A stretch of 64,000 bases of DNA from Candidatus Methanoperedens nitratireducens (GTDB taxonomy: Archaea > Halobacteriota > Methanosarcinia > Methanosarcinales > Methanoperedenaceae). This document shows, in pieces, positions 11,732 through 36,694 of the stretch (position 1 is its first letter; the number at the start of each line of letters is the position of its first letter). The stretch lies in NCBI RefSeq assembly GCF_000685155.1, contig NZ_JMIY01000007.1, positions 72,745 through 136,744 of the forward strand. Direction: 5' to 3'. A program made the position numbers and the translations under genes. The notes under the pieces are model-generated. The model was not told the origin of the DNA and made no database searches. It was given only the letters and a program-made list of their open reading frames with translations.

Positions 11732-11788
11732 AACGAACTGGTACGAACTCATCAGCCCGAGTTCGTATCGAGTTCGTACCAGTTCGTT
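11732..11788. repeat. Perfect 19-bp inverted repeat between the DHH gene and alaS
   Basis: AACGAACTGGTACGAACTC at 11732-11750 pairs exactly with its reverse complement at 11770-11788 across a 19-nt loop that itself repeats part of the arm (GAGTTCGTATC). It starts 19 nt after the DHH stop codon and about 100 nt before alaS. It could be an RNA terminator or processing hairpin, or a DNA site for a dimeric protein. No U-run follows directly. Confidence 0.9.
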
Positions 11789-11892: not shown

Positions 11893-14640
11893 ATGCTAGA
11901 GGACGAGTACCAACTGGATTATTTTAAAGAGAACGGCTTTGTGCGAAAACAGTGTCCCGGATGCGGCAAGAACTTCTGGACGCGGGATCACGAGCGTGAG
12001 CTCTGCGGGGACCCGCCGTGTGTATCATACTCATTTATTGGCAACCCTGTGTTCAAGAAAGAATACGATATACCCTCCATGCGTGAGACGTATCTATCTT
12101 TTTTTGAAAGGCACGGGCACACGCGGGTGAAGCGTTACCCTGTTATCGCACGCTGGCGTGATGATATCTACCTAACAATAGCATCGATTGCGGATTTCCA
12201 GCCCTTTGTTACATCAGGGCTTGTCCCGCCTCCTGCAAATCCCCTGACCGTTTCCCAGCCGTGTATCCGTCTTGATGACCTCGATGCAGTGGGGCGAAGC
12301 GGACGCCATCTTACAAACTTTGAGATGATGGCCCATCATGTCTTCAATTCAAGAGGAAATGAGATCTACTGGAAGGACAGAACAGTGGAGTTATGCGATA
12401 CCCTCTTATCAGAACTCGGTCTTGACCTGAACGCAGTGACGTATAAAGAATCGCCGTGGGCAGGAGGGGGGAATGCAGGTCCGAGCGTAGAAGTACTTGT
12501 CGGCGGGCTTGAGCTTGCCACGCTTGTCTTCATGAACCTGAAACAGACAAAAGGCGGCCCGATAGATATCAAAGGTGAGAGTTATGAGAAGATGGATACC
12601 TATATTGTGGATACAGGCTACGGGCTTGAGAGGTTTGTCTGGGCCTCCAAAGGCTCACCTACCATATACGATGCTGTATTTCCAAATATCGTTGCCGGAC
12701 TTATGGAGCTTGCAGGGCTGGAGCACTCAATAGAGAATCCAGAGTATGCGCGCATATTCTCACAGAATGCAAGATTTGCAGGTGTAATGGATATCAGCGG
12801 GCAGGCAAATCTCCTCCAGTTGAGAAGGAAAGTTGCAGAAAGCATCGGCACTACTGTTGAAAAGCTTCAGGAGATTATGGAGCCTGTAGAAACGGTCTAT
12901 GCTATTACAGATCACTCAAGATGCCTTGCATTCATGCTGGGTGACGGCATCATCCCATCCAATGTAAAGGCAGGTTACCTTGCGCGGCTTGTGCTTCGAA
13001 GGACGCTTCGCATGATGAGGGATCTTGGAATAAAAGTGCCGCTCTCCGATATTGTAGAGATGCAGATAAGGAACCTCCCGGAGTATCCTGAGTTCAGGGA
13101 GAGGATTGATACGATCAGGGAGATCCTCATGCTTGAGGAAGAGAAGTTCGCTGATACGATACAGCGCGGCTCAAGACTGGTCAGGAAGACAGCCCTTCAC
13201 TTCAAAGAAAAAAAGCAGAGTATGCCACTTGGAGAATTGATCCTGCTGTACGACACGCACGGTATCCCGCCTGAGATAACACGCGAAGTGGCAAAAGAAG
13301 AAGGAGTTGATGTTGAATTACCTGATACCTTCTATTCGCTTGTGGCGAAGAAACACTGCAAGGCAGAGGAAGAGGAGAAACAGGCTCTGCCGCTGGATAT
13401 TCCGCCCACGAGGAAACTGTACTATGAACATCCTGCTCAATCAGAGTTTGAGGCTACTGTTATTGAGGTCATCGGGAATAAGATAATCCTTGACCAGACA
13501 TTATTCTATCCTGAGGGAGGAGGGCAGCCTGCTGACCACGGCACGTTATCTCTTGATGATATCGCTGTGAACGTGGTGGATGCCCAGATCACCAATGGCA
13601 TCATCCTCCATGAGACCGACTCAAGTTTCGGGTTTAAGAAAGGGGATACCGTAAAAGGAAAAATTGATATGGAGCGAAGGCTTGCACATATGCGCCACCA
13701 CACAGCCACGCATATCGTTAATGAGGCTGCTAAATCCGTCCTCGGAAGACATGTATGGCAGACAGGTGCACAGAAATCCACAGACAGGGCAAGGCTTGAC
13801 CTTACCCATTATAAACGTATCTCTGATTCTGAGTTCAGAGAAATAGAACTGCTTGCAAATAGAGTAGTAATGCAGGATCTGCCTGTGATCATTAAATGGA
13901 TGGACAGGGTTGAGGCGGAGAAGCGATACGGTTTTGTGCTGTACCAGGGCGGCGTCCCTCCAGGAAAGGAGATACGCATCCTGAAGGTCGGGAACGATGT
14001 GGAGGCATGCGGCGGGTTGCATGTCCCAAATACAGGAATAATCGGCCCTATCAAGCTCATCAAGACTGAGAGGATACAGGATGGCGTAGAACGCATCGAG
14101 TTCTCAGCAGGAGAGGCCGCTGTAAAACATATACAGGAGAGGGATGAGTTGCTGAACAGATCAGCAGAAACACTTCGGGTCACGCCTGAGCAGTTGCCAG
14201 ATACAGTCAACCGCTTCTTCGAGGAATGGAAGGACCTGAAGAAAGAGAGCGAGCGCCTCAAGGCTGAATTGGCAGAAGTGCGGGTAAAGGCCATAATGAG
14301 CGAGGCAGTGGGAATAAACGGCTTAAGAGTGATCTCAAAGAAGATCCCGCAGGCAGATGTGGATGAGCTGATAAAGGCAGCCACAGAGTTCAGTAAGGAT
14401 GATGATATGGTGGCAATCCTGGCAAGCGATCTTGGCGGTGTTAAGCTTGTTGTCTCAGCAGGCGGGCACGCCCAGAAGTTAGGTATCAATTCAGGTGCAA
14501 TAGTGCGCGAGATATCAAAACTTGTCGGCGGTGGAGGGGGAGGCAGGCCAGGTATAGCGCAGGGAGGAGGGACTGATGCAGGGAAGATTGATGAGGCGCT
14601 GAGGAGGGGAGTGGAACTGGTGAGGGAGAGGGTGGAATAA
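11893..14640 (+). CDS. alaS: Alanyl-tRNA synthetase, archaeal type
   Basis: 915 aa. An N-terminal zinc-binding extension (CPGCGKNFW and CGDPPC, typical of archaeal AlaRS) precedes the class II catalytic domain (about 60-470), the tRNA-recognition region, the editing domain with the HMRHHTATH motif (about residues 596-604) and its partner CGGLH, and a C-Ala domain ending in a glycine-rich GGGGGGRPGIAQGG. It charges tRNA-Ala and clears Ser/Gly mischarging. A TATA-like TTTTTAAAAA at about 11846-11855 suggests a leader of about 20 nt. Confidence 0.97.
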   Translation: MLEDEYQLDYFKENGFVRKQCPGCGKNFWTRDHERELCGDPPCVSYSFIGNPVFKKEYDIPSMRETYLSFFERHGHTRVKRYPVIARWRDDIYLTIASIADFQPFVTSGLVPPPANPLTVSQPCIRLDDLDAVGRSGRHLTNFEMMAHHVFNSRGNEIYWKDRTVELCDTLLSELGLDLNAVTYKESPWAGGGNAGPSVEVLVGGLELATLVFMNLKQTKGGPIDIKGESYEKMDTYIVDTGYGLERFVWASKGSPTIYDAVFPNIVAGLMELAGLEHSIENPEYARIFSQNARFAGVMDISGQANLLQLRRKVAESIGTTVEKLQEIMEPVETVYAITDHSRCLAFMLGDGIIPSNVKAGYLARLVLRRTLRMMRDLGIKVPLSDIVEMQIRNLPEYPEFRERIDTIREILMLEEEKFADTIQRGSRLVRKTALHFKEKKQSMPLGELILLYDTHGIPPEITREVAKEEGVDVELPDTFYSLVAKKHCKAEEEEKQALPLDIPPTRKLYYEHPAQSEFEATVIEVIGNKIILDQTLFYPEGGGQPADHGTLSLDDIAVNVVDAQITNGIILHETDSSFGFKKGDTVKGKIDMERRLAHMRHHTATHIVNEAAKSVLGRHVWQTGAQKSTDRARLDLTHYKRISDSEFREIELLANRVVMQDLPVIIKWMDRVEAEKRYGFVLYQGGVPPGKEIRILKVGNDVEACGGLHVPNTGIIGPIKLIKTERIQDGVERIEFSAGEAAVKHIQERDELLNRSAETLRVTPEQLPDTVNRFFEEWKDLKKESERLKAELAEVRVKAIMSEAVGINGLRVISKKIPQADVDELIKAATEFSKDDDMVAILASDLGGVKLVVSAGGHAQKLGINSGAIVREISKLVGGGGGGRPGIAQGGGTDAGKIDEALRRGVELVRERVE

Positions 14641-18765: not shown

Positions 18766-19976
18766 AACAAGAGTTAATCGTCAAACAAAAGAACAAATTG
18801 CCTGAAGGATGGCACGTTTATAAAATGGAAAACGTTTGCGATTTAAAAACCGGAGGGACGCCCTCTAAAAGCCATCCAGAGTATTTTGGAGGGAATATCA
18901 AATGGATTGTATCAGGCGATGTTAACAAGGAATTCATTTATGATGTTGATGGACGCATTACTGAATTAGGTCTCAAAAATTCGAATGCAAGAATACTAAC
19001 TAAAGATTCAGTATTGATTGCATTGAATGGTCAAGGCAAAACAAGAGGTACAGTTGCAGTTTTAAAAACGGAAGCTGCCTGTAATCAATCAATTGTTGCA
19101 TTTATACCAAAAAAAAGAGACCAATTGGATTATACATTTTTATTTTATTATTTAAAGAGTGGATATCAAAAATTAAGAAATCTCACTGGGGATAATGAAC
19201 GAAGTGGTTTAAGCATGAGGATTTTAAGACCACTTCCAGTTGTAGTTCCCCCAATAGATACGCAAAAGAAAATAGTTGATAAAATCGAGAAGCAAATGGC
19301 TCAAATCGAGATGATTAAAAAAGAAGCGGAAAGGCAAAAAGTAGTCATAGAAAGCATCTTTCAAAGTTTTTTAAAAAACATTTTTGAAAAAAAAGAGATT
19401 TCTGCTAAGTGGAAAAGATTTAAACTCGGTGATAATAACATCTCAGAAATCATAATGGGGCAATCTCCCTCCAGTTCGTCATATAATAAACTACAAAAAG
19501 GATTACCGTTTTATCAAGGGAAGAAAGATTTTGGTTTAATCTCTCCTGCGCCCACAGTCTGGTGTTCTAAACCTAAAAAGATAGCTAAAAAAGGAGATAT
19601 TTTGATTTCGATTCGAGCTCCAGTCGGCCCTACAAACATTGCTGATGCTGATTGTTGTATTGGTAGAGGTTTAGCATCAATTAGACCTAAAACTAATAGA
19701 GAGTTTATATTATTTCAATTAAAATATAATGTTCAAAAATTACAAGAGAAATCAAATGGTAGTACTTTTGAAGCGATAAATAAAAATGAATTATTTGATT
19801 TTGAGGTTATTCTGCCCGATAGATTAGAACAAGAAAAGGTAATAGCCATTTTAAATCAAAAAGAAAAAGAAATTGAAAATATGAAATATCAAATAAATAA
19901 TCAACTCAACGCCATCAATCAGCTCCCCAACTCAATCCTCAATGAAGTCTTCGGGCAATATCAAATCATTAGCTGA
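18762..19976 (+). CDS. hsdS: Type I R-M specificity subunit HsdS
   Basis: 404 aa from ATG 18762 (a GGAGG site lies at about 18740-18744, inside hsdR'). It has two target-recognition domains (about residues 8-165 and 215-370), each followed by a coiled-coil conserved region (IDTQKKIVDKIEKQMAQIEMIKKE and LEQEKVIAILNQKEKEIENMK, quoted in part). Full length. With hsdR truncated and no intact hsdM in this island, it can act only if another HsdM pairs with it, for example that of the second locus; this is untested. Confidence 0.92.
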   Translation: MKQELIVKQKNKLPEGWHVYKMENVCDLKTGGTPSKSHPEYFGGNIKWIVSGDVNKEFIYDVDGRITELGLKNSNARILTKDSVLIALNGQGKTRGTVAVLKTEAACNQSIVAFIPKKRDQLDYTFLFYYLKSGYQKLRNLTGDNERSGLSMRILRPLPVVVPPIDTQKKIVDKIEKQMAQIEMIKKEAERQKVVIESIFQSFLKNIFEKKEISAKWKRFKLGDNNISEIIMGQSPSSSSYNKLQKGLPFYQGKKDFGLISPAPTVWCSKPKKIAKKGDILISIRAPVGPTNIADADCCIGRGLASIRPKTNREFILFQLKYNVQKLQEKSNGSTFEAINKNELFDFEVILPDRLEQEKVIAILNQKEKEIENMKYQINNQLNAINQLPNSILNEVFGQYQIIS

Positions 19977-20061
19977 TGATATTATGAAAGAAATGACAGC
20001 GCAACTTGAAAAAGAAATAAAAATCCTATTGACCTCAATTGAACACGGATACAATACAGTA

Positions 20062-20094
20062 AATCTGCGTTCATCTGCGTTCATCTGCGGTTCG
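20062..20094. repeat. Tandem 10-nt repeat in the hsdS/Bro-N gap
   Basis: TCTGCGTTCA occurs at 20064-20073 and 20074-20083, with a degenerate third unit to 20093. The 242-nt gap 19977-20218 otherwise holds no convincing gene; a frame running out of the hsdS end to 20208 loses protein-like composition and is probably chance. Such TCTGCG runs are common intergenic junk in many prokaryotes. Confidence 0.6.
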
Positions 20095-20218
20095 TTTTTA
20101 ATATATATCCAAGAATCTAATTACTGCCTCCGTTTAATGAAAAAAAGGCCTCATCTGAATATTACTTTCGCCCTGCTATCCCAACCATTTTTTAACACGA
20201 TAATATAGAGATATCAAT

Positions 20219-27340: not shown

Positions 27341-27715
27341 TTATAACATAATAGCATCATCGAAATTTTTAAAATGATGATCTCCTGTCAATACCTTTAT
27401 CTTTCTGCTCCTAGCGGATGCAAGTATTATTGCATCTGCAAGACCAAAATCAGTGGTCTTAACTTTACTTTCAGCATGTATTTTCGCAGCATCAACTGCA
27501 ATATTTTCATCAAGCAAGACCACAGCACATCTTTTCAATATGAAATCCTTTCTTTCTTCCGCTTTTCCATCGGTTCTAAGAGATTTGGAATATATTTCTG
27601 CGATTACAATCGGAGATGTATATAATTGTAAGTCATCGTCGACGAATCTCCTGACTTTTTCACCCTTAAGAGTTCCCATAAAATATTCCATCCATGCGAA
27701 CGAATCCAGAAACAT
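27341..27715 (-). CDS. vapC: VapC-type PIN-domain toxin ribonuclease
   Basis: 124 aa PIN domain. Acidic residues expected at the metal site are Asp4 (FLDSFAW), Glu40 (VIAEIYSKS), Asp95 (ADAIILASA) and Asp112 or so (LTGDHHFKNF). It starts with the TAATG overlap of the antitoxin stop, a classic translationally coupled toxin-antitoxin pair. VapC toxins cleave tRNA or rRNA when freed from VapB. Confidence 0.9.
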   Translation of the reverse strand: MFLDSFAWMEYFMGTLKGEKVRRFVDDDLQLYTSPIVIAEIYSKSLRTDGKAEERKDFILKRCAVVLLDENIAVDAAKIHAESKVKTTDFGLADAIILASARSRKIKVLTGDHHFKNFDDAIML

Positions 27716-27918
27716 TATAATCTATCCTCATGGTCTCTGAGGTCGGATAAATCAGTCTCAGACATTGTCCCAAAAAGGCTTTTTTTCTCTTTGAAAAGCA
27801 TTTTTATTAAAATTTCATTTATTCTTTCTGATATATTTTTTGCTCCAGCTTCTTTTTTAAGGGTCTGGTAAACGTCTTCTCTTAATTTTATTGTAGTTCG
27901 GACGTATTCTGTCATCAT
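27715..27918 (-). CDS. vapB: VapB-type antitoxin
   Basis: About 67 aa from ATG 27918 (an AGGTG site lies just upstream). The N-terminus (EYVRTTIKLREDVYQTLKKE) is a short DNA-binding domain with one strand and helices, as in archaeal DUF217-type VapB; the acidic C-terminus (SETDLSDLRDHEDRL) would fill the toxin active site. It likely represses its own promoter near 27930-27950, where the palindromic TATGATATCAT occurs. Confidence 0.82.
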   Translation of the reverse strand: MMTEYVRTTIKLREDVYQTLKKEAGAKNISERINEILIKMLFKEKKSLFGTMSETDLSDLRDHEDRL

Positions 27919-28063
27919 TAACACCTAGATATATGATATCATCTACATCAACATAATACTTGTGGTGGGCATCTATAATGCGCGCCTAATTTTCAAGTTT
28001 GAAGAAGTTTTTCCGAGTCTATCATCTTTCTCAAGCATGATGTTAACCGCATGGGAGTCACTA

Positions 28064-28090
28064 CCCCGGATTGCTTCGCAAAATCCGGGG
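28064..28090. repeat. Strong GC hairpin in the VapB / R-M gap
   Basis: CCCCGGATT (28064-28072) pairs with AATCCGGGG (28082-28090), and the loop adds a TTGC/GCAA pair. It lies in an otherwise gene-free 530-nt stretch (27925-28451). The hairpin could be a terminator, or part of the recombination debris at the R-M island edge. Confidence 0.7.
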
Positions 28091-28254
28091 CATCCTGGCT
28101 CGGGTGCATAAGGCCTCTTATCGTTTTTTGTTTTTTAGGCTTTTATTGGCAAAAATGGGCACAAAAATAGTGAGGGTAAAAATTTTCAGTATTTACAATC
28201 CCTAATAACGTGTTGGATATAATATTCCATATTCCTGGTTTTGATTATGAATTC

Positions 28255-28363
28255 ATATAACGGTTGCGTGTATGTGACGTTTTCACCGTAGCGTACTCGC
28301 TGAGGTGAAAATGAGGCGTAGCCCAAGCCGGTATTCCGGCGCAGCATATACACGCTGTTATGT
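28255..28363 (+). repeat. Folded palindromic element resembling an integron attC site
   Basis: Outer arms: ATATAAC (28255-28261) and GTTATGT (28357-28363) are near-complementary and close to the attC core consensus RYYYAAC/GTTRRRY. Inside them GCGTGTAT (28266-28273) pairs exactly with ATACACGC (28348-28355). Inside that are two further stems: TTTTCACC (28280-28287) with GGTGAAAA (28304-28311), extended by AGCG/CGCT, and GCCGG (28327-28331) with CCGGC (28336-28340). The R''-L''...L'-R' order and about 109-nt length fit attC. It follows hsdM in that gene's direction. A structured RNA or a bacterial intergenic repeat are alternatives. Confidence 0.55.
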
Positions 28364-28376
28364 TCAGTGTCCGGCT
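28357..28376 (+). repeat. Left boundary repeat of the second R-M locus (20-nt imperfect inverted repeat)
   Basis: GTTATGTTCAGTGTCCGGCT; its reverse complement matches 35521-35540 at 17 of 20 positions. The two copies sit in inverted orientation 7.1 kb apart, just outside hsdM and hsdR, so they bracket the whole R-M operon. Confidence 0.65.
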
Positions 28377-28385
28377 TTTCTTCCA

Positions 28386-28413
28386 AGTCAAAATACATCT
28401 GTGTATTTTGACT
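28386..28413 (-). terminator. Perfect 12-bp hairpin downstream of hsdM
   Basis: AGTCAAAATACA (28386-28397) pairs with TGTATTTTGACT (28402-28413) around a 4-nt loop, 39 nt beyond the hsdM stop. It is well placed to end the R-M transcript or protect its 3' end, although no U-run follows on the minus strand. Confidence 0.55.
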
Positions 28414-28451
28414 TTCTTCACTTATTCTAAAAATGTGAATGGGATATAGAT

Positions 28452-30059
28452 TCAAGGCAATTTCGACAATCCGAGTTCCACAAGAAATTTATTATGGGCA
28501 TCTTTTGCCTTCGTTATTTTTTCCTCAATTCCAACCAGATCTTTGTTGACTTGATTAATATCAATTAATTTCTCTGCCTCCGCTGTACTCACATACCGCG
28601 AAATGTTCAGATTGTATTCGTTTTTTTCTATTTCTTGCATTGAGACATATCGTGAGTACCGCTTTTCTTCTTTTCGATACTGATATGTATCTATGATTTT
28701 ATCAATGTGCTCATCTGAAAGAAAATTCTGCCGTTTGCCTTTTTCAAAGTATTCGCTGGCGTTGATAAATAAAACATCATCAAACTTTTTACATTTTTTC
28801 AGGACAAGAATGCAAACCGGAATACCTGTAGAAAAGAAAAGATTTGCCGGTAAACCTATAACTGTATCGATATTGCCATCTTTCAATAATTTTGTTCGTA
28901 TTCGTTCTTCGACTCCGCCACGGAAAAGAACGCCATGGGGCAGGATAATTGCCATGGTGCCTTCATCGCTTAAAAAATGAAAGCCGTGCAACAAAAAGGC
29001 AAAGTCGGCAGCAGACTTAGGCGCGAGACCGTAGCTTTTAAAACGGAAATCTTCTCCCAAAGCATCATTTGGTTCCCAGCGATAACTAAAGGGAGGATTG
29101 GCAACAACGGCATCACACTCAAGTTTTTTAGCCGGATTCATTTCATTGAGAATATCCCAGTCATTGAGCAGTGAATCCCCATGGTGTATTTGAAACTCGG
29201 AATCTTTCAATCCATGGAGCAGCATGTTCATTCGTGCAAGGTTGTAAGTAGTAATATTTTTTTCCTGACCGTAAATCTGCCCGATACTGTTGGGTCCAAG
29301 CTGTTTCCTTACATTTAAAAGTAGTGAACCTGAACCACAGGCGAAATCGAGAAGGTTTTTCAGCTTTTTCTTTTTACCAGAACTTGGATTTTGACTATCC
29401 AGGGTGACAATTTTCGACAAAATGGTTGAAATCTGCTGTGGTGTGTAAAACTCTCCGGCTTTTTTACCTGAACCAGCAGCAAACTGTCCAATCAGATATT
29501 CATAGGCATAGCCTAAAATATCACTCTCGGTAGAAAACTTAGAAAGCCCTTCGGCAATTTTGCTTACAATCGTACAAAGTTTTGTGTTACGGGCAGAGTA
29601 ATTTTTCCCGAGTTTTTCAGAGTCCAGATTGATTTCCGAAAATAGACCCTGAAAAGTACTTTCAAAAGAGTCATTTTCAACATGTTTAAATCCGGCTTGC
29701 AAGGTTTTTAAGAGGTCATCGCTTTGGGTTCTTGCCAGCTCGTATATACTACTCCAGAGATATTCAGGTTTGATAATATAATGAACTTTACGTCTCATCT
29801 GTTTTTCAAATACCATCGTATCTTCTTTGTTTGCTTCATACCAGACAGAAAGGGGTGTCCTTCTGTCGTCTTCGTTCAGCTTCGGGTAATCCTTTCCAAG
29901 CTCTTTTTCAGCTGCAACTTCATAGTTGTCTGAAAGGTAGCGTAGAAAAAGAAAAGAGAGCATATAATCCCGGAAGTCATCGGCGTTCATAGCACCGCGT
30001 AGTTGGTCGGCGATATTCCAGAGAGTAACGCCCAGTTGTTTTTGCATTGCATCATTCAT
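28452..30059 (-). CDS. hsdM: Type I R-M DNA methyltransferase HsdM
   Basis: 535 aa, full length. An N-terminal helical domain (residues 1-160, NIADQLRGAMNADDFRDYML) precedes the SAM-binding motif I (LLDFACGSGSLL, about 238-249) and the catalytic NPPF motif IV (about 320-323), so N6-adenine methylation is expected. FYTPQQIS is the family hallmark upstream of motif I. It follows the anticodon-nuclease gene by 3 nt and is last in the operon. Methylation also protects against its own HsdR and, in Prr-type systems, the complex keeps the nuclease silent. Confidence 0.96.
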   Translation of the reverse strand: MNDAMQKQLGVTLWNIADQLRGAMNADDFRDYMLSFLFLRYLSDNYEVAAEKELGKDYPKLNEDDRRTPLSVWYEANKEDTMVFEKQMRRKVHYIIKPEYLWSSIYELARTQSDDLLKTLQAGFKHVENDSFESTFQGLFSEINLDSEKLGKNYSARNTKLCTIVSKIAEGLSKFSTESDILGYAYEYLIGQFAAGSGKKAGEFYTPQQISTILSKIVTLDSQNPSSGKKKKLKNLLDFACGSGSLLLNVRKQLGPNSIGQIYGQEKNITTYNLARMNMLLHGLKDSEFQIHHGDSLLNDWDILNEMNPAKKLECDAVVANPPFSYRWEPNDALGEDFRFKSYGLAPKSAADFAFLLHGFHFLSDEGTMAIILPHGVLFRGGVEERIRTKLLKDGNIDTVIGLPANLFFSTGIPVCILVLKKCKKFDDVLFINASEYFEKGKRQNFLSDEHIDKIIDTYQYRKEEKRYSRYVSMQEIEKNEYNLNISRYVSTAEAEKLIDINQVNKDLVGIEEKITKAKDAHNKFLVELGLSKLP

Positions 30060-30062
30060 TGT

Positions 30063-31199
30063 TTAAGTCCTCTTTTGGGGAAATAATTCAGGATTAAATC
30101 GGTAATTTGCCATGAAATCATTCAGTATTTTTTTGAAATACTCCTTGTTGTCATCAAGCATCTCTTTTGGTTCAAACAAAGAGTAATTTCCATGGCTTAA
30201 AAGATTTACCAGCCTTGTATGTATGGTTCCGTCCAGATCATCGCTATCTTGCTTAATACATGAGGAAAAATTGTTAAAACCGTGAAATGTAGCGGTTTTT
30301 TCAAGGACATTTCTCAGAATATTAAAATGATAAGTATATAACTTCCCTGATTCGGCTACTTCGCTTAGTTCTTTTAAAAGAGCCACGTGGTGAAAGAATG
30401 GGGTATCACCAGTATTGCGGATTGAATACTCACTGCTTTTATTTGTGCTCAGAAAATATTTTTCTGCATTTTTTAGTTCATTGTACATGACATTAAAGAA
30501 AAGCGCATGGTGCGTTGAGATGACCGTTTTTATATCACTTTGTTTCTTGAGTAGTTGGGCAAGGTGGCTGGCGACAGCAATAGCGTTATTGTCGTCCAGA
30601 GATGAGATAGGGTCATCAATGTAGATGTATTTGACCCAAGTATAAGCCTCCTGCTTATCAATTGCAAGCTGGGCAACAGCGAGGAAAAAACACCAGACAA
30701 AGATATTCTCTTCTCCACGAGATATTTTTATATGCTCTATTTTTTTCGTTACATCATCTTTTCTTATATCTCGGGAAAAGCTGACACTCCAGGCGTCATA
30801 GTCAATAGAAAAATCGAAATCGGCATATCTGCTTAAAAATGGACGAATGCGGCTTTCCATTTCCAGTTCTCGCAGTCCCTTGAAAAAGCTGGAATCTCTA
30901 TTCAGTTGCAAAACTCTTTGTGTATCATTTTCTAAATCATTATCCCAGGTAAACAGGTCTTCGGTAAAGGCATTGTAGTACAGTGTATCTGAGGTAGTTT
31001 CTTCGGCACTCAAAGAATTTCCGCCTTCATCTGTCAAATTTGCCGTTCTTTTGCCTAAATCCTTGAATGCACTTGAAAGCCGGGTTTTACCGGTTCCATT
31101 ATAGGCAAAAACAAGAATGTACTTCTTGTTTGCAAGCGTATCTCTTAAATGCGTTGCCAGTGATTTTAAACTTTCAAAGCTGGTCAAATCCGTACTCAT
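30063..31199 (-). CDS. PrrC-like tRNA anticodon nuclease (ABC-ATPase plus HEPN-type RNase region)
   Basis: 378 aa. ABC-type ATPase: Walker A AYNGTGKTRLS (about 32-42), signature ISRGEEN (159-165), Walker B YIYIDDPISSLDD (191-203), switch H230. The C-terminal third has Arg296-x3-Glu300 and His336 (in NLLSHGNYS), the same order and near-same spacing as the Arg-Glu-His triad of E. coli PrrC, and total length is close to PrrC's. It is embedded between hsdS (4-nt overlap) and hsdM, as prrC is embedded in its R-M locus. Expected role: held inactive by the R-M complex and released when a phage inhibitor disables it, then cutting a tRNA anticodon loop. Activity and target tRNA are inferred. RloC is less likely because no long coiled coil is present. 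Confidence 0.8.
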   Translation of the reverse strand: MSTDLTSFESLKSLATHLRDTLANKKYILVFAYNGTGKTRLSSAFKDLGKRTANLTDEGGNSLSAEETTSDTLYYNAFTEDLFTWDNDLENDTQRVLQLNRDSSFFKGLRELEMESRIRPFLSRYADFDFSIDYDAWSVSFSRDIRKDDVTKKIEHIKISRGEENIFVWCFFLAVAQLAIDKQEAYTWVKYIYIDDPISSLDDNNAIAVASHLAQLLKKQSDIKTVISTHHALFFNVMYNELKNAEKYFLSTNKSSEYSIRNTGDTPFFHHVALLKELSEVAESGKLYTYHFNILRNVLEKTATFHGFNNFSSCIKQDSDDLDGTIHTRLVNLLSHGNYSLFEPKEMLDDNKEYFKKILNDFMANYRFNPELFPQKRT

Positions 31200-32458
31200 A
31201 CGCTCACCTCATCGGTAGACGGAAAAAGCCCCTGCATCAGCCCTTTTTTATGAGTTTTGTAGGCTTCCAGCTTTTGGATTTCGGCGGTGATGAGCTCATC
31301 GAGAGAAGAGAGACAATCAGCGATTTTTTGTTGTTCTTCTGGTTTAGGTACCACCATTGGTAAATTTTTTAAATCATCAATGCCGATCCGTTTTCTAGTA
31401 GAACCTGTTGCTGTCTTTTCTACTAACGCTCGAAATTGAATGGAGTTAATTAGCGTATATATGAAATATTTGCTATAGGCTTTTTCGTCAACGACTAACC
31501 GTATTCCATCTGAACACATTACGTATCGCGCATGTTTATACGGTATCAAGCAAGCCCTACCTACGGGATCACCCATTTTGGATAATATAATTTCACCGGG
31601 GTAAATGTTATTGGCCAGGAGTTCATCCGCCTTCTCTTCTGATGTGAATATCTTATAATCATCAAAAAATTCAGCATCACCGATATTTTGTAGTTGAATT
31701 ATTCTAATACCATCTGCGACGTAGTCGGAAGATTTTAGGTTTGATCCAAATGGCCCACCAATAAAACTCCATTTAGTTTTTTTATCGGCCACATCAATGA
31801 GCTTCTTCACCTCCCACTCTCCCGCATCCCGAAACTCTGGAAAGCGCAGCCCGGGCACGGTTTCCCCTTCGGCGGGGAAGAGCTGCTGCATCAGCCATTT
31901 CTTATGGTCTTTGTAAGCTTCCAGCTTTTGGGTTTCGGCGGTGATGAGTTCATCGAGGGAAGAGAGGCAATCGGCGATTTTTTGTTGTTCGTGGAGGCTA
32001 GGTAGTGGTATAGGAATAATATCCAGCTTGGCTCTATTGAGCTTTGGTTGAGCCATACCTGTCAGGTAATCTTCCAAATTTATTGCATTTAAATAATTTT
32101 CAACAATAACCTGCGTGAAAGCATATTCAAATTTTAGTACATGGACGTGATTGTTTACCCAGGCTTTACCAGCAATAGAAAAAGCAATAGGATAGGTTCG
32201 CACAACTAGGTTTGCACCATCTTCGGATATACAAAGCAATTCCTCGTCAAAAATAAAGTCTTTTACATAATCTATTACTCCAGAAGCACCATAGTAAGGT
32301 ATATCACCTTTAATTCTGTCTTTCTCGGTTATAGGCACTCTTTTGGAATCCAAGTTTTTGCCTGCTTCACCCAATGGTTTCACCTCCCACTCCCCCGTAT
32401 CCCTAAACTCAGAAAACCTCAGCTTGGGCACCAATGATTTTTCATTCTTCTTATTCAT
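31196..32458 (-). CDS. hsdS: Type I R-M specificity subunit HsdS
   Basis: About 420 aa from ATG 32458, which overlaps the hsdR stop by 8 nt; the longer frame to 32494 is inside hsdR. Two target-recognition domains are each followed by near-identical conserved helices (QQKIADCLSSLDELITAETQ, residues about 165-184, and its copy near 385), the usual twofold repeat. PKLRFSEFRD and LRFPEFRD mark the domain starts. The near-identity of the two halves at DNA level (about 31820-31990 versus 31200-31330) makes half-exchange by recombination possible. Confidence 0.94.
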   Translation of the reverse strand: MNKKNEKSLVPKLRFSEFRDTGEWEVKPLGEAGKNLDSKRVPITEKDRIKGDIPYYGASGVIDYVKDFIFDEELLCISEDGANLVVRTYPIAFSIAGKAWVNNHVHVLKFEYAFTQVIVENYLNAINLEDYLTGMAQPKLNRAKLDIIPIPLPSLHEQQKIADCLSSLDELITAETQKLEAYKDHKKWLMQQLFPAEGETVPGLRFPEFRDAGEWEVKKLIDVADKKTKWSFIGGPFGSNLKSSDYVADGIRIIQLQNIGDAEFFDDYKIFTSEEKADELLANNIYPGEIILSKMGDPVGRACLIPYKHARYVMCSDGIRLVVDEKAYSKYFIYTLINSIQFRALVEKTATGSTRKRIGIDDLKNLPMVVPKPEEQQKIADCLSSLDELITAEIQKLEAYKTHKKGLMQGLFPSTDEVSV

Positions 32459-35447
32459 ACGCACCCAACCCCGCAATCTCACGGCTGCCGGCAAGTTTTT
32501 TCAAGAGTGGAGTCAAATCTTCCATAAGTTCCAGTTCCTTCTTTGTCCGCTCTTTCCAACTCAAATCCAGAGGTGCCATCAAATCACTGAGCTTCTCCCC
32601 ATCAAAGATCATGCGGTCCATGACTTCATCCACAAAAGCCTGTAATGATTCAGGCTCCAGTCCGTGCTTCCCGGCTGCCTCTGCCATTTCTTTAGCGGCT
32701 TTTTCTGCCTTGAATTGCCGGTAGCCCTCTTTTATCTCTTTTTCGTTCAACCCTTCGCCGGCTTTCAGTGTGTTGATATAAGCGATAATATCTTCCCGAT
32801 CCTCCATTAAATTGGTGTTGGAGGCGAGCAGGTTGATCAGCTGTTCCCTGCTCATCTTCTGTTTTTTTGGCCCGCTTTGTGTGTACTTCGATATAAGTTT
32901 TATGATGTAGTCATAGTCAATGAGAGCAGAAGAAAACAGGACAAACTCAAAATCCAGCTGGTCAATATCCGGGTTTGCGCCGATACTTTCCTTGCCCTGC
33001 CGGGACTTTAAACGTTGGGCTGTTTCGATATATGCGCCACGGAAAGCGCGCAGGATATCTTCGGGTATCCTTTCTTCAATTTTAGTGCTGTCTTCTTCAC
33101 TCAGGTCGGTATACTGGTCAAGCTGGGTTTTAAGCCGCTGCACTTCTTTAAACTTATTGATAAACTCGCCCCGTGCCTGATCGCCTTTCAGGTTGTTCAC
33201 CTCTTCAGGTGTACAGAGCAGCCCCTGAGATTCCATGAATTTTTCCAGTTCGCTTACTGCCGTATCAAACTTTTTAACAACCACGGGCGCCGGTTCAACC
33301 AGCCATATTTCTTTTGCCCTTTTGCTATCCTGACCGGAAAAGAGAGCAATGGCATCGTCAACTTCTCTGGTCTGCTGTCTAAAATCGAGTATGTTGCCGT
33401 AAGGTTTTGTGTCATTCAAAATCCGGTTTGTTCTGGAAAAAGCCTGTATCAAACTATGATGCTTCAAGTTTTTATCCACATACAGGGTGTTCAGATATTT
33501 TGAGTCAAAACCAGTTAGCAGCATATCTACAACGATGACCACATCGATTTTATTTTCATGCGGATAGTCGGCATTGGAATACTTTTGATCTTTGATTCTA
33601 TTCTGGACATCCTGATAATACAAATCAAACTGGTTTATGTGGTGGTTTGTGCCGTACTGCTGGTTATAGTCAGCAATAATTGCTTTCAGAGCTTCCTTCT
33701 TTTTATCGGGTTCCTGTTCATTGTCTAACTTTTCCTGAGGAAGGTCTTCCTGAATCTGCTGGACATCTTTATTTCCTTCAGCCGGGGGAGAGAATACGCA
33801 GGTCACATTTAATGGTTTGTATTCTTCATCATTATTCCGACGCTCTGCCTGTATAGCTTTAAAGAGTTCATAATACTCGATAGCGTCATTTATTGAAGCA
33901 GTTGCCAGAATAGCGTTGAATCGCCGTGAGTTTGTAGCATCATTGTGCTTATCCAGTATCGCATCTACAACAGCTTTTTTACTGGTGGCATCGGCAGTTT
34001 TTACTGGTTTTTTACCATCCAGCTTGAAATAATCAATATGAAAACGCAGAACATTGCGGTCATCAATCGCGTGGGTAATGGTGTAGGCGTGCAGTTGTTT
34101 TTCAAAAATATCTTTTGTTGTCTTGTAAGAAGACAGAGTACCGTCAATTTGCTTATAGATCGCATTTTCTTCAAAAATGGGTGTTCCGGTAAATCCAAAA
34201 AGCTGCGCTTTTGGAAAAAACTCTTTGATATATTTATGGTTATCACCAAACTGTGAGCGGTGACATTCATCAAAAATGATGACAATCCTTTTATCACGAA
34301 GAGGCTCTAATCGTTCTTTATAGGTCAGTTTGCCTTTTTGCTTGCTGTTTTTGTTTCTTTTACTGTTTTCATCAAGGGCAAGCCCCAATTTCTGGATGGT
34401 GCTCACAATAACTTTATCGCTATAATCTTCTGATAACAGCCGTTGAACCAGAGTTTCCGTATTGGTATTTTCTTCAACGCATCCCTCCTGAAACTTGTTG
34501 AACTCCTCCCGGGTTTGCTTGTCCAGGTCTTTTCGGTCAACAACAAATAAACACTTTTCAATGTCGGGATTGTCTTTTAAAAGTGTCGAAGTTTTAAAAG
34601 AAGTAAGGGTTTTTCCGCTGCCCGTGGTGTGCCAGATATAACCATTACCGCGGTTTTGATGGATACAGTCCATAATTGCTTTAACCGCATAGATTTGATA
34701 TGGACGCATGATCATTAATTTTTGCTCGCTAACCACAAGTACCATATACTTGCTGATCATTTGCCCCAGAGTGCATTTTGCGAGAAATTTTTCGGCGAAC
34801 TCATGTAAATGGGTGATTTTCTTGTTTGCTTCATCGGCTAACTGATAAATAGGAAGAAATCTTTCATCCGCATTAAAGCTGAAATGGTCTTTATGATTGT
34901 TAGAGAAGTAGTAGGTATTGCTTTCGTTGCTGACAATAAAAAGCTGCATAAAACAAAGCAGTGAGTTAGTAAAGCCGTTGCCCGGATCGTTTTTATATTC
35001 AACAATCTGCTCCATCGCCCGCTTTGGTGTTACTTGCAGGGTTTTAAGTTCAATTTGAACAACCGGCACGCCATTAATGAGTATGATGACATCGTAACGA
35101 TGATGACTATTATCAGTATTTATTCGTAGTTGGTTAATGACTTCAAATTCGTTTTTGCACCAGTCCTTGATATTGACCAGGGTGTATTGCAGTGGCGTAT
35201 CATCATCCCGGCGAAAGGTATTTATTTCCCGTAAGGTTTTTGCTGCCGTGAATACATCGGCAGTAATAATTTCATCCCTAAGCCGTGCAAATTCTGAATC
35301 ATTCAGATTTACTTTATTGAGTCTTTGAAAGTGCTCTCTGAAATTCGCTTCAAGCGAGGCTTTCTCCCGAATATCATCCCGGTAAGTGTATTTGAGGTCT
35401 TTAAGCTTATTGATTAAAGATTCTTCTATTTGCTTTTCAAATGTCAT
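32451..35447 (-). CDS. hsdR: Type I R-M restriction/translocase subunit HsdR
   Basis: 998 aa, full length. Nuclease residues Asp119, Glu133 and Lys135 (YDVII...QIELKT) are intact. SF2 motor: Walker A GSGKT (276-280), DECHRS (393-398), motif III FTGTPIF, a DMLLTGFDS motif V and an QAFSRTNR motif VI. The C-terminal helical domain (about 780-998) docks on the methyltransferase. First gene of the operon. Unlike the 17.7 kb copy, every catalytic feature is present, so this locus looks functional. Confidence 0.96.
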   Translation of the reverse strand: MTFEKQIEESLINKLKDLKYTYRDDIREKASLEANFREHFQRLNKVNLNDSEFARLRDEIITADVFTAAKTLREINTFRRDDDTPLQYTLVNIKDWCKNEFEVINQLRINTDNSHHRYDVIILINGVPVVQIELKTLQVTPKRAMEQIVEYKNDPGNGFTNSLLCFMQLFIVSNESNTYYFSNNHKDHFSFNADERFLPIYQLADEANKKITHLHEFAEKFLAKCTLGQMISKYMVLVVSEQKLMIMRPYQIYAVKAIMDCIHQNRGNGYIWHTTGSGKTLTSFKTSTLLKDNPDIEKCLFVVDRKDLDKQTREEFNKFQEGCVEENTNTETLVQRLLSEDYSDKVIVSTIQKLGLALDENSKRNKNSKQKGKLTYKERLEPLRDKRIVIIFDECHRSQFGDNHKYIKEFFPKAQLFGFTGTPIFEENAIYKQIDGTLSSYKTTKDIFEKQLHAYTITHAIDDRNVLRFHIDYFKLDGKKPVKTADATSKKAVVDAILDKHNDATNSRRFNAILATASINDAIEYYELFKAIQAERRNNDEEYKPLNVTCVFSPPAEGNKDVQQIQEDLPQEKLDNEQEPDKKKEALKAIIADYNQQYGTNHHINQFDLYYQDVQNRIKDQKYSNADYPHENKIDVVIVVDMLLTGFDSKYLNTLYVDKNLKHHSLIQAFSRTNRILNDTKPYGNILDFRQQTREVDDAIALFSGQDSKRAKEIWLVEPAPVVVKKFDTAVSELEKFMESQGLLCTPEEVNNLKGDQARGEFINKFKEVQRLKTQLDQYTDLSEEDSTKIEERIPEDILRAFRGAYIETAQRLKSRQGKESIGANPDIDQLDFEFVLFSSALIDYDYIIKLISKYTQSGPKKQKMSREQLINLLASNTNLMEDREDIIAYINTLKAGEGLNEKEIKEGYRQFKAEKAAKEMAEAAGKHGLEPESLQAFVDEVMDRMIFDGEKLSDLMAPLDLSWKERTKKELELMEDLTPLLKKLAGSREIAGLGAYE

Positions 35448-35520
35448 TCACATTCACCGTTCAATCCTTCATTCATGTCTTCTTATTCCTCGGGCACGGA
35501 TGGCCGAGATTTATATTTAT

Positions 35521-35540
35521 AGCCGGGCATTGAACATAAT
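35521..35540 (-). repeat. Right boundary repeat of the second R-M locus
   Basis: AGCCGGGCATTGAACATAAT, inverted partner (17/20) of 28357-28376, 74 nt upstream of hsdR. The gap 35448-35625 has no gene. Confidence 0.65.
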
Positions 35541-35543
35541 AAT

Positions 35544-35570
35544 GTATATCCGAACTTACTTCGCATATAC
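35544..35570. repeat. 27-nt near-palindrome GTATATCCGAA-N5-TTCGCATATAC
   Basis: One mismatch in an 11-base arm. It directly follows the boundary repeat. The first 13 bases (GTATATCCGAACT) and the closing ATATAC recur at 46376-46400, also beside an integrase relic. Confidence 0.6.
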
Positions 35571-35625
35571 ATCCCTCTGGTCAACTCCATAATCGTCAAT
35601 CATTTTCATCTCCTACTTTTAACTG

Positions 35626-35790
35626 TTAGCTATCCAGCGGACTTTTTATCTTCACAATATCCCTGTTACTTACATACGTATATATTTCTGTTGTCTTTGA
35701 ACTCTTGTGCCCCAACACCTCCTGGATATACAGCAGGTCAATACCGCATTCAAGTGGATGTGTAGCGAAGCTATGCCTGAGAGCCTGTTT
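35626..35790 (-). pseudogene. C-terminal fragment of a tyrosine recombinase (XerC/D-like integrase)
   Basis: On the minus strand the frame ending at TAA 35626-35628 encodes [19 protein letters not shown], then [20 protein letters not shown] and [16 protein letters not shown]. This holds the catalytic R of LRHSFATH, its H, the LGH histidine and the nucleophile tyrosine (in EIYTYVS). The frame runs into a stop about 11 codons upstream of LRHS, so the rest of the gene is lost, probably by the insertion next door. Confidence 0.85.
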
Positions 35791-35881
35791 TAAAATTCGA
35801 TACACATATCGATTTTACAAAACCAGTTTAAGTGATTTTAAGCCTAATAATCTAACAGTAGCGACATATTTGATATCCATG

Positions 35882-36694
35882 TCACAAAAAATATTCAAAC
35901 AAGCTCTGAGAGAAAGCACAGTGACGTCTTAACAGTTTAACATCTTCTTTCCCTGAAGGTGCTTTTCGCTTCCTCTTCATTTTATAGTCCACTGCAATTA
36001 TCTTTTTATCTTTATTCTTCTCTATAACCTTCATTATCCCTGTACTCTTCTTTGCCTGGATTACAAAATGCACGCCCAATCGCTTGAGCATTCTAACAAT
36101 TGGAACTTCATAGAATCCACGATCAAGGTAAATCCTTCTAATCTTCACTTTTTGCATAGCGTATTTGATAAGCTCCTCCACTACATTGCAAATCTCTGAG
36201 TAATCACTGATTGGAAGTGCTTTCAGTGTAAACCTGATCCCTCTCTCAACAATGTTTATTGTTGCAAATTTGTATGCGTAGGAGGTGCCGTTTTTTGCTT
36301 GTGTGCCAAGAACCATCTCATCATCTGTATTGCCGTAGTACATCCAGTCATGTGTATCAATTGAGACGTCCACCTTATTCACAAACCATCTTTGTTTCTC
36401 TACCATTCGATACATCTCTTCAGAAATTTTACTATCTTGCCTGAGAATTTCATCAATTTCAAGCTTTTCTAAGTGATATCTGATTGTTCTCGGAGCAGGT
36501 ACATCCTTTTTTCTCGATTTTAGGATTTGCGTACTGTTCTCTATAAAATCATCAGTTATGGCTGCATGAGCAATGCAGTCTAAAAGATTATCTTGTCTGC
36601 CTGTAGTGACATTATGTCTCTGCTTGAATTCAAACATCGGATAGAACTTCTTCTTGAGGGTTTGATATAACCTCGTCTCAGTGAACGATAACAT
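35882..36694 (-). mobile_element. ISH3-like DDE transposase, C-terminally truncated
   Basis: 270 aa against about 390 in intact family members. First catalytic Asp lies in VDVSIDTHDW (about 113-122), second in IRRIYLDRGFY (about 195-205). The third acidic residue, expected further on, is missing because the frame ends after LLRRHCAFSQSLFEYFL, which does not look like transposase. No terminal inverted repeats could be paired with confidence. The element is inactive in cis. Confidence 0.8.

Follow-up and report, generated by a model that had tools for sequence, protein, structure and literature searches.

A probable attC-like recombination site ending a restriction-modification gene cassette in an archaeon, and the Xer-type capture system to which it may belong

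The closest described systems to the locus studied here are integrons and the elements that exploit Xer recombination. Archaeal integrons that carry IntI have been published (PMC9668308), and none of the archaeal genomes in the IntegronFinder 2.0 database was reported to have an integron (PMC9024848). It has been argued that IntI gained its I2 helix for single-stranded sites, with a Xer-like ancestor being imagined, and CTX-phi is the only partial analogue named in published work (PMC4792948, PMC7790495). In the open-licence papers, the combination of a Xer-type recombinase with hairpin-ended cassettes is proposed only as an ancestor of integrons. Here we have analysed a 64-kb stretch of DNA (the window; 72745-136744 of the 709-kb contig G000:C7, from a 3.2-Mb genome that is 99.8% complete), in which a sequence-only reading had noticed an attC-like folded site tied to an archaeal R-M operon. 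The window is archaeal, since the archaeal equivalog model TIGR03683 recognises its alanyl-tRNA synthetase with 1323 bits, and its gene content suggests a Methanoperedens-like member of the Methanosarcinales. That first observation is borne out by our analysis, and we consider it probable (about 0.8), judging from the sequences compared, that 28255-28363 is an attC-like recombination site of an archaeal integron-like gene-capture system with a Xer-type recombinase. By its apparent boundaries, the site ends a 7.3-kb mobile gene cassette that holds a whole type I R-M operon together with prrC (Table 1).

The coordinates first proposed for the site run exactly from R'' to R', and the cores named in that proposal stand, on the minus strand rather than the plus strand. 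As the element is a near-palindrome readable on either strand, the minus strand was assigned from the covariance model, the asymmetry of the spacers (1 and 4-5 nt), the direction of the genes and the cassette boundaries. Folded with DNA parameters, 28245-28373 reaches -30.1 kcal/mol, against -15.4 kcal/mol in shuffled sequences (z=-5.6, 0/200 as good). The stems are less regular than the four perfect ones first described: the long L stem contains one pair that is G.T on the plus strand and a mismatched A.C on the minus strand, and the folding is ambiguous as to an extrahelical base, giving either this mismatch or a bulge. The covariance-model search that had been proposed as a check gave no site in the window with a model of bacterial attCs (R2), whereas R3, built from 43 further archaeal sites and without that of the window, matched on the minus strand with E=4.6e-11, its sole match within the 64 kb. 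The element is present in a single copy, with no other such site in its own genome at E<=0.1; it is no common repeat of that genome, and it matched no Rfam family at gathering or permissive thresholds. Plasmid DNA searched with the element gave no match. The archaeal family to which the site belongs has the inverted R''/R' and L''/L' boxes with an AAC/GTT core that are expected of integron sites, and in the window the crossover would fall at G(28261)^T. Elsewhere in the window, a strong intergenic inverted repeat at 11732-11788 (AACGAACTGGTACGAACT...) is not an attC according to the models.

The site was first seen as a lone element at the end of a defence operon; it is not that, for the operon itself appears to be the cassette. 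Of 19 bases at the cassette start, TTATGTTCAATGCCCGGCT, 17 agree with the reverse complement of the R''-ending end, AGCCGGACACTGAACATAA; the local score is 28, whereas none of 60 shuffled queries exceeded 23 over 16 kb. The base before the start is A where G is expected. A start complementary to the R'' end of the attC is a hallmark of integron cassettes, and is found both in the window and in 21 cassettes from arrays. On the minus strand, the order is the C-terminus of a recombinase, an attI-like palindrome, the cassette start at 35539, hsdR, hsdS, prrC, hsdM, the attC-like site and the conserved right end.

Table 1. Features of the putative cassette and its flanks, in window coordinates.
Feature	Coordinates	Strand	Evidence or description
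DDE transposase remnant, in place of the recombinase N-terminus	35882..36694	minus	Pfam DDE_Tnp_1; related flank in L057
Xer-type tyrosine recombinase, C-terminal 55 residues, rest lost (pseudogene)	35629..35793	minus	TIGR02249 partial match, 62 bits
attI-like site, imperfect palindrome TATATGCGAAGTAAGTTCGGATATA adjoining the cassette start	about 35540..35584	minus	layout recurs in relatives
Putative complete cassette, 7,279 bp, two core sites as ends	28261..35539	minus	start-end complementarity
hsdR, type I restriction subunit	32451..35447	minus	TIGR00348, 384 bits over cut-off; PADLOC REase_I
hsdS, specificity subunit	31196..32494	minus	Pfam Methylase_S 2.8e-37; PADLOC Specificity_I
PrrC-like anticodon nuclease (AAA_13 ATPase)	30063..31199	minus	PADLOC PrrC 1.1e-141; Pfam AAA_13
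hsdM, methyltransferase	28452..30059	minus	TIGR00497, 384 bits over cut-off
attC-like site	28255..28363	minus	R'' ACATAAC, 1-nt spacer, L'' 11 nt, variable terminal hairpins, L', 4-nt spacer, R' GTTATAT
Conserved right end, ~185 bp, downstream of the cassette	28075..28260	minus	conserved in other genomes of the genus

Both flanks of the cassette recur in relatives with other contents between them. The recombinase fragment shares 72-74% with other cassette-linked fragments and 62% with host XerA, and within the genus the same C-terminal fragment is followed by other cargo. A palindrome after the recombinase C-terminus is also seen at L279, L057, L062, L213, L216 and others; these sites are called attI-like for their palindrome and GAGTTAT-like core 3' of recombinase C-termini, and both their position and the exchange of cassettes there agree with that role. 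The right end is joined in each relative to a different cassette end or attC-like hairpin. It holds further core sites, for example G(28209)^TTATTAGGG, and the junctions between cassette and right end in the genus use three different GTT cores. A dif-like pattern search of the window's own genome returned a few matches. After the right end, in the same orientation, lie a gene for a PIN-domain toxin-like protein and, upstream of it, a small ORF (27341-27920), a vapBC-like pair that PADLOC does not recognise. The same genome contains a second, degenerate recombinase C-terminal fragment (L199; G000:C7:223241-223330, minus) with a different gene and no detectable attC downstream. Short C-terminal remnants also precede different, often defence-like genes at L215, L216, L204, L091, L211 and others, several with attI-like palindromes; the N-terminus is very often the part that is lost.

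The exchange of cassettes can be followed at one orthologous locus in three sister species of another family (L213, L217 and L218). The flanks are 90-96% identical over more than 1 kb on the left, and on the right too in two of them (L218 ends after 208 bp), and three different cassettes lie between, with SIR2 genes, unlike each other, in two and a gene judged TIR-like by eye in the third. On the left, all three break at attI, CCTGAG^TTAT; on the right, the two whose attC is intact break at G^TTATCTGC, that of L217 being damaged.

At the level of the family, 12 seed sites picked by flank or boundary consist of two stems, R of 7 bp and L of 11 bp, set apart by 1 nt on one side and 4-5 nt on the other, an architecture that was derived in part from the sequences on which it was tested; 81% of their cells are paired, against 18-50% when the arms are slid, and covariation is 0.324 against at most 0.155, with L218, L060 and L058 pairing poorly. 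A covariance model of these sites (R1), which presupposes that architecture, found 43 sites in 195 kb of relatives' DNA, with 84% of cells paired and a covariation of 0.421 against at most 0.115 slid, in an alignment fitted to the model. R1 sites occur in 30/60 relatives at E<=0.1, and 76/295 genomes of the phylum have sites at E<=0.001; the one-contig genome G036 has 31, and arrays reach four sites, one such array being within the window's genus (G006:C92). For the 21 array cassettes, start and end match at a mean of 12.6/22 positions compared with 9.1 for mismatched pairs (0/20,000 permutations), and complementarity was also found for the cassettes at L090, L062, L217 and L218. The boundary test failed or gave no clear result at L057, L098, L201, L204, L208, L211, L212, L215 and L216, where the site is damaged, unrecognised or beyond the stretch. 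The cassettes looked at often carry defence-type genes (R-M with PrrC, SIR2, TIR/ThsB-like, HEPN-nucleotidyltransferase, STAND ATPase). On the Chryseobacterium plasmid NZ_CP041688.1 (L295), R1 matches weakly at 12381-12512 (E=0.06) and 19974-20105 (E=0.0012), downstream of a Xer-type recombinase without the IntI insert; around them lie co-oriented small genes, a group II intron and an IS110 transposase, and from its sequence this looks like a similar cassette array in Bacteroidota.

An intact form of the recombinase was found in G036, where P0005 (379 residues; HTH_17, a weak HARP match, SAM_4 and phage integrase in Pfam) is followed 3' by a palindrome GCATATCCGAACAGTTCGGATATG, a core GAGTTATACG, a cassette and an attC. 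It passes the archaeal XerA model NF040815 (XerA_Arch; 242 bits, cut-off 220) and reaches 215 of the 265 bits set for IntI by TIGR02249, which it matches in two stretches flanking the missing insert; the corresponding motif spacing is 59 residues in the cassette-linked recombinase vs 100 in IntI. In the tree, the cassette recombinases fall together (83/85), with host XerA (100/100) and IntI (100/99) as separate groups. Close relatives of the intact protein occur in 15/295 genomes, all 15 among the 76 with sites (hypergeometric p=4.8e-10, a value that ignores shared descent), and in G310, G171, G172 and G322 a site lies within about 1-2 kb after the recombinase, on the same strand. It is on this linkage, phylogeny and co-occurrence that we assign the recombinase to the sites. 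Another Xer-type recombinase, L089 (G040:C41:4981-5832), is placed close to the cassette group by the tree, at the end of a long branch, and its gene is directly followed by an IS91-like HUH transposase gene. A search with the model PRK15417 was uninformative, because it matched in all controls, and an SSV-type split integrase was dropped by reasoning, as the fragments are short C-termini with a palindromic attI-like site rather than gene halves at the two ends of an element.

Could the site instead be a canonical attC of an IntI-dependent bacterial integron, transferred into an archaeon? Canonical R boxes (GCCTAAC/GTTAGGC) do occur in relatives, archaeal IntI integrons have been published (PMC9668308), and two low-quality genomes of the window's genus contain true IntI genes above the TIGR02249 cut-off (G027:C5 and G029:C157); these lie on contigs of 3-4 kb, possibly contamination, and were not used as evidence on the host. 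The window's own genome, for which an IntI gene had been suggested as something to look for, has no canonical IntI, its best TIGR02249 matches being below the cut-off and without the IntI insert. R2, which we built from 20 attCs of IntI integrons and which is not IntegronFinder's model, used trimmed ends (A4) after MAFFT had misaligned the right arms of full sites (A2). With it, 25 bacterial IntI loci yielded 25 sites, all on the expected strand and many outside its training set, but the window (E<=10) and 16 archaeal loci yielded none; conversely, canonical bacterial IntI loci gave no site with the archaeal models. An extrahelical base, seen as a bulge in the left arm, occurs in 18/20 bacterial sites against only 4/12 archaeal seeds (Fisher p=0.0015), so that it is absent from most archaeal sites; a cruder count of ungapped arms (9/12 archaeal, 8/20 bacterial) separates the two less well. 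With a linked recombinase that also lacks the IntI insert, a transferred bacterial attC seems distinctly improbable.

That host XerA, the chromosome-dimer resolvase, moves the cassettes as it does Xer-exploiting elements, without any dedicated recombinase, is a reading we regard as unlikely. XerA-type genes are in nearly every genome of the genus while intact cassette-linked recombinases are rare, the recombinase fragments share 62% with XerA as noted above, and the attI-like sites appear to resemble a Xer site (GGATATA-6-TTAT). Against this, attI and the sites directly follow an intact dedicated recombinase, which has a clade to itself and co-occurs with the sites, and family f5, rich in complete genomes, is almost without sites (none by R1 in six genomes). 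It would be extremely improbable for the hairpin to be a MITE, a terminator or a structured RNA standing beside the operon by chance: although it is strong and lies in an intergenic gap, and the missing Rfam match rules out known families only, its single copy, the complementarity of cassette ends across 7 kb and the same flanks joining different cassettes and hairpins in relatives do not fit, and the boundary test contradicts it.

Under the reading that we prefer, an archaeal capture system with its own enzyme, it is most likely the Xer-type tyrosine recombinase, a sister of XerA that lacks the IntI-specific insert, that joins attC-like hairpins to the attI-like palindromic site, which, just downstream of the recombinase's own gene, would be the insertion point. 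The substrate would be the single-stranded folded hairpin, and circular cassettes would be inserted at G^TT, which would leave cassette genes and the recombinase gene co-oriented. In the window only a fragment of the local recombinase is left, and no close relative that is intact occurs in the genome; for these reasons the cassette is probably stranded, and it is probably frozen unless a recombinase arrives from outside or host XerA acts.

These results suggest that archaea have their own exchange of gene cassettes, invisible to IntI- and attC-based surveys, and that a whole type I R-M and PrrC operon can travel as a single cassette. We tentatively propose, at somewhat less than even odds, that this is a complete IntI-independent capture system, with a dedicated Xer-type recombinase without I2 and hairpins without extrahelical bases, and that a state proposed as ancestral to integrons is alive and widespread in archaea, perhaps also on Bacteroidota plasmids, with defence genes among its cargo. 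A system without I2 and mostly without extrahelical bases makes it directly testable how Xer recombinases became integron integrases.

Compared with known systems, the cargo has the hsdM, hsdS, prrC and hsdR content of the prr locus, but is borne as one cassette in the order hsdR-hsdS-prrC-hsdM. With archaeal XerA/dif (NF040815), the system shares the protein family and an attI-like core resembling the Xer site, whereas the cassette-linked recombinase is a separate clade, its G036 copy bearing an N-terminal extension with HTH and a HARP-like part. CTX-phi type Xer-exploiting elements (IMEX; PMC4792948, PMC7790495) likewise combine, in CTX-phi as those papers describe it, a hairpin without extrahelical bases and a Xer-type recombinase without I2, but they are phages or elements that rely on host XerCD, unlike the archaeal genes in cassettes and arrays with a dedicated recombinase. 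With the integron (IntI, attI and attC), the archaeal system has in common the order recombinase-attI-cassette-attC, RYYYAAC/GTTRRRY-like cores, complementarity of cassette end and start, arrays and recombinase-less clusters. It differs in its recombinase without the IntI-specific insert, in sites that mostly lack extrahelical bases and have spacers of 1/4-5 (typically 5/6 or 2-3/3-5 in attC), in the co-orientation of recombinase and cassettes, and in being missed by the bacterial attC model. By these sequence features, it works like an integron while falling outside the IntI/attC family.
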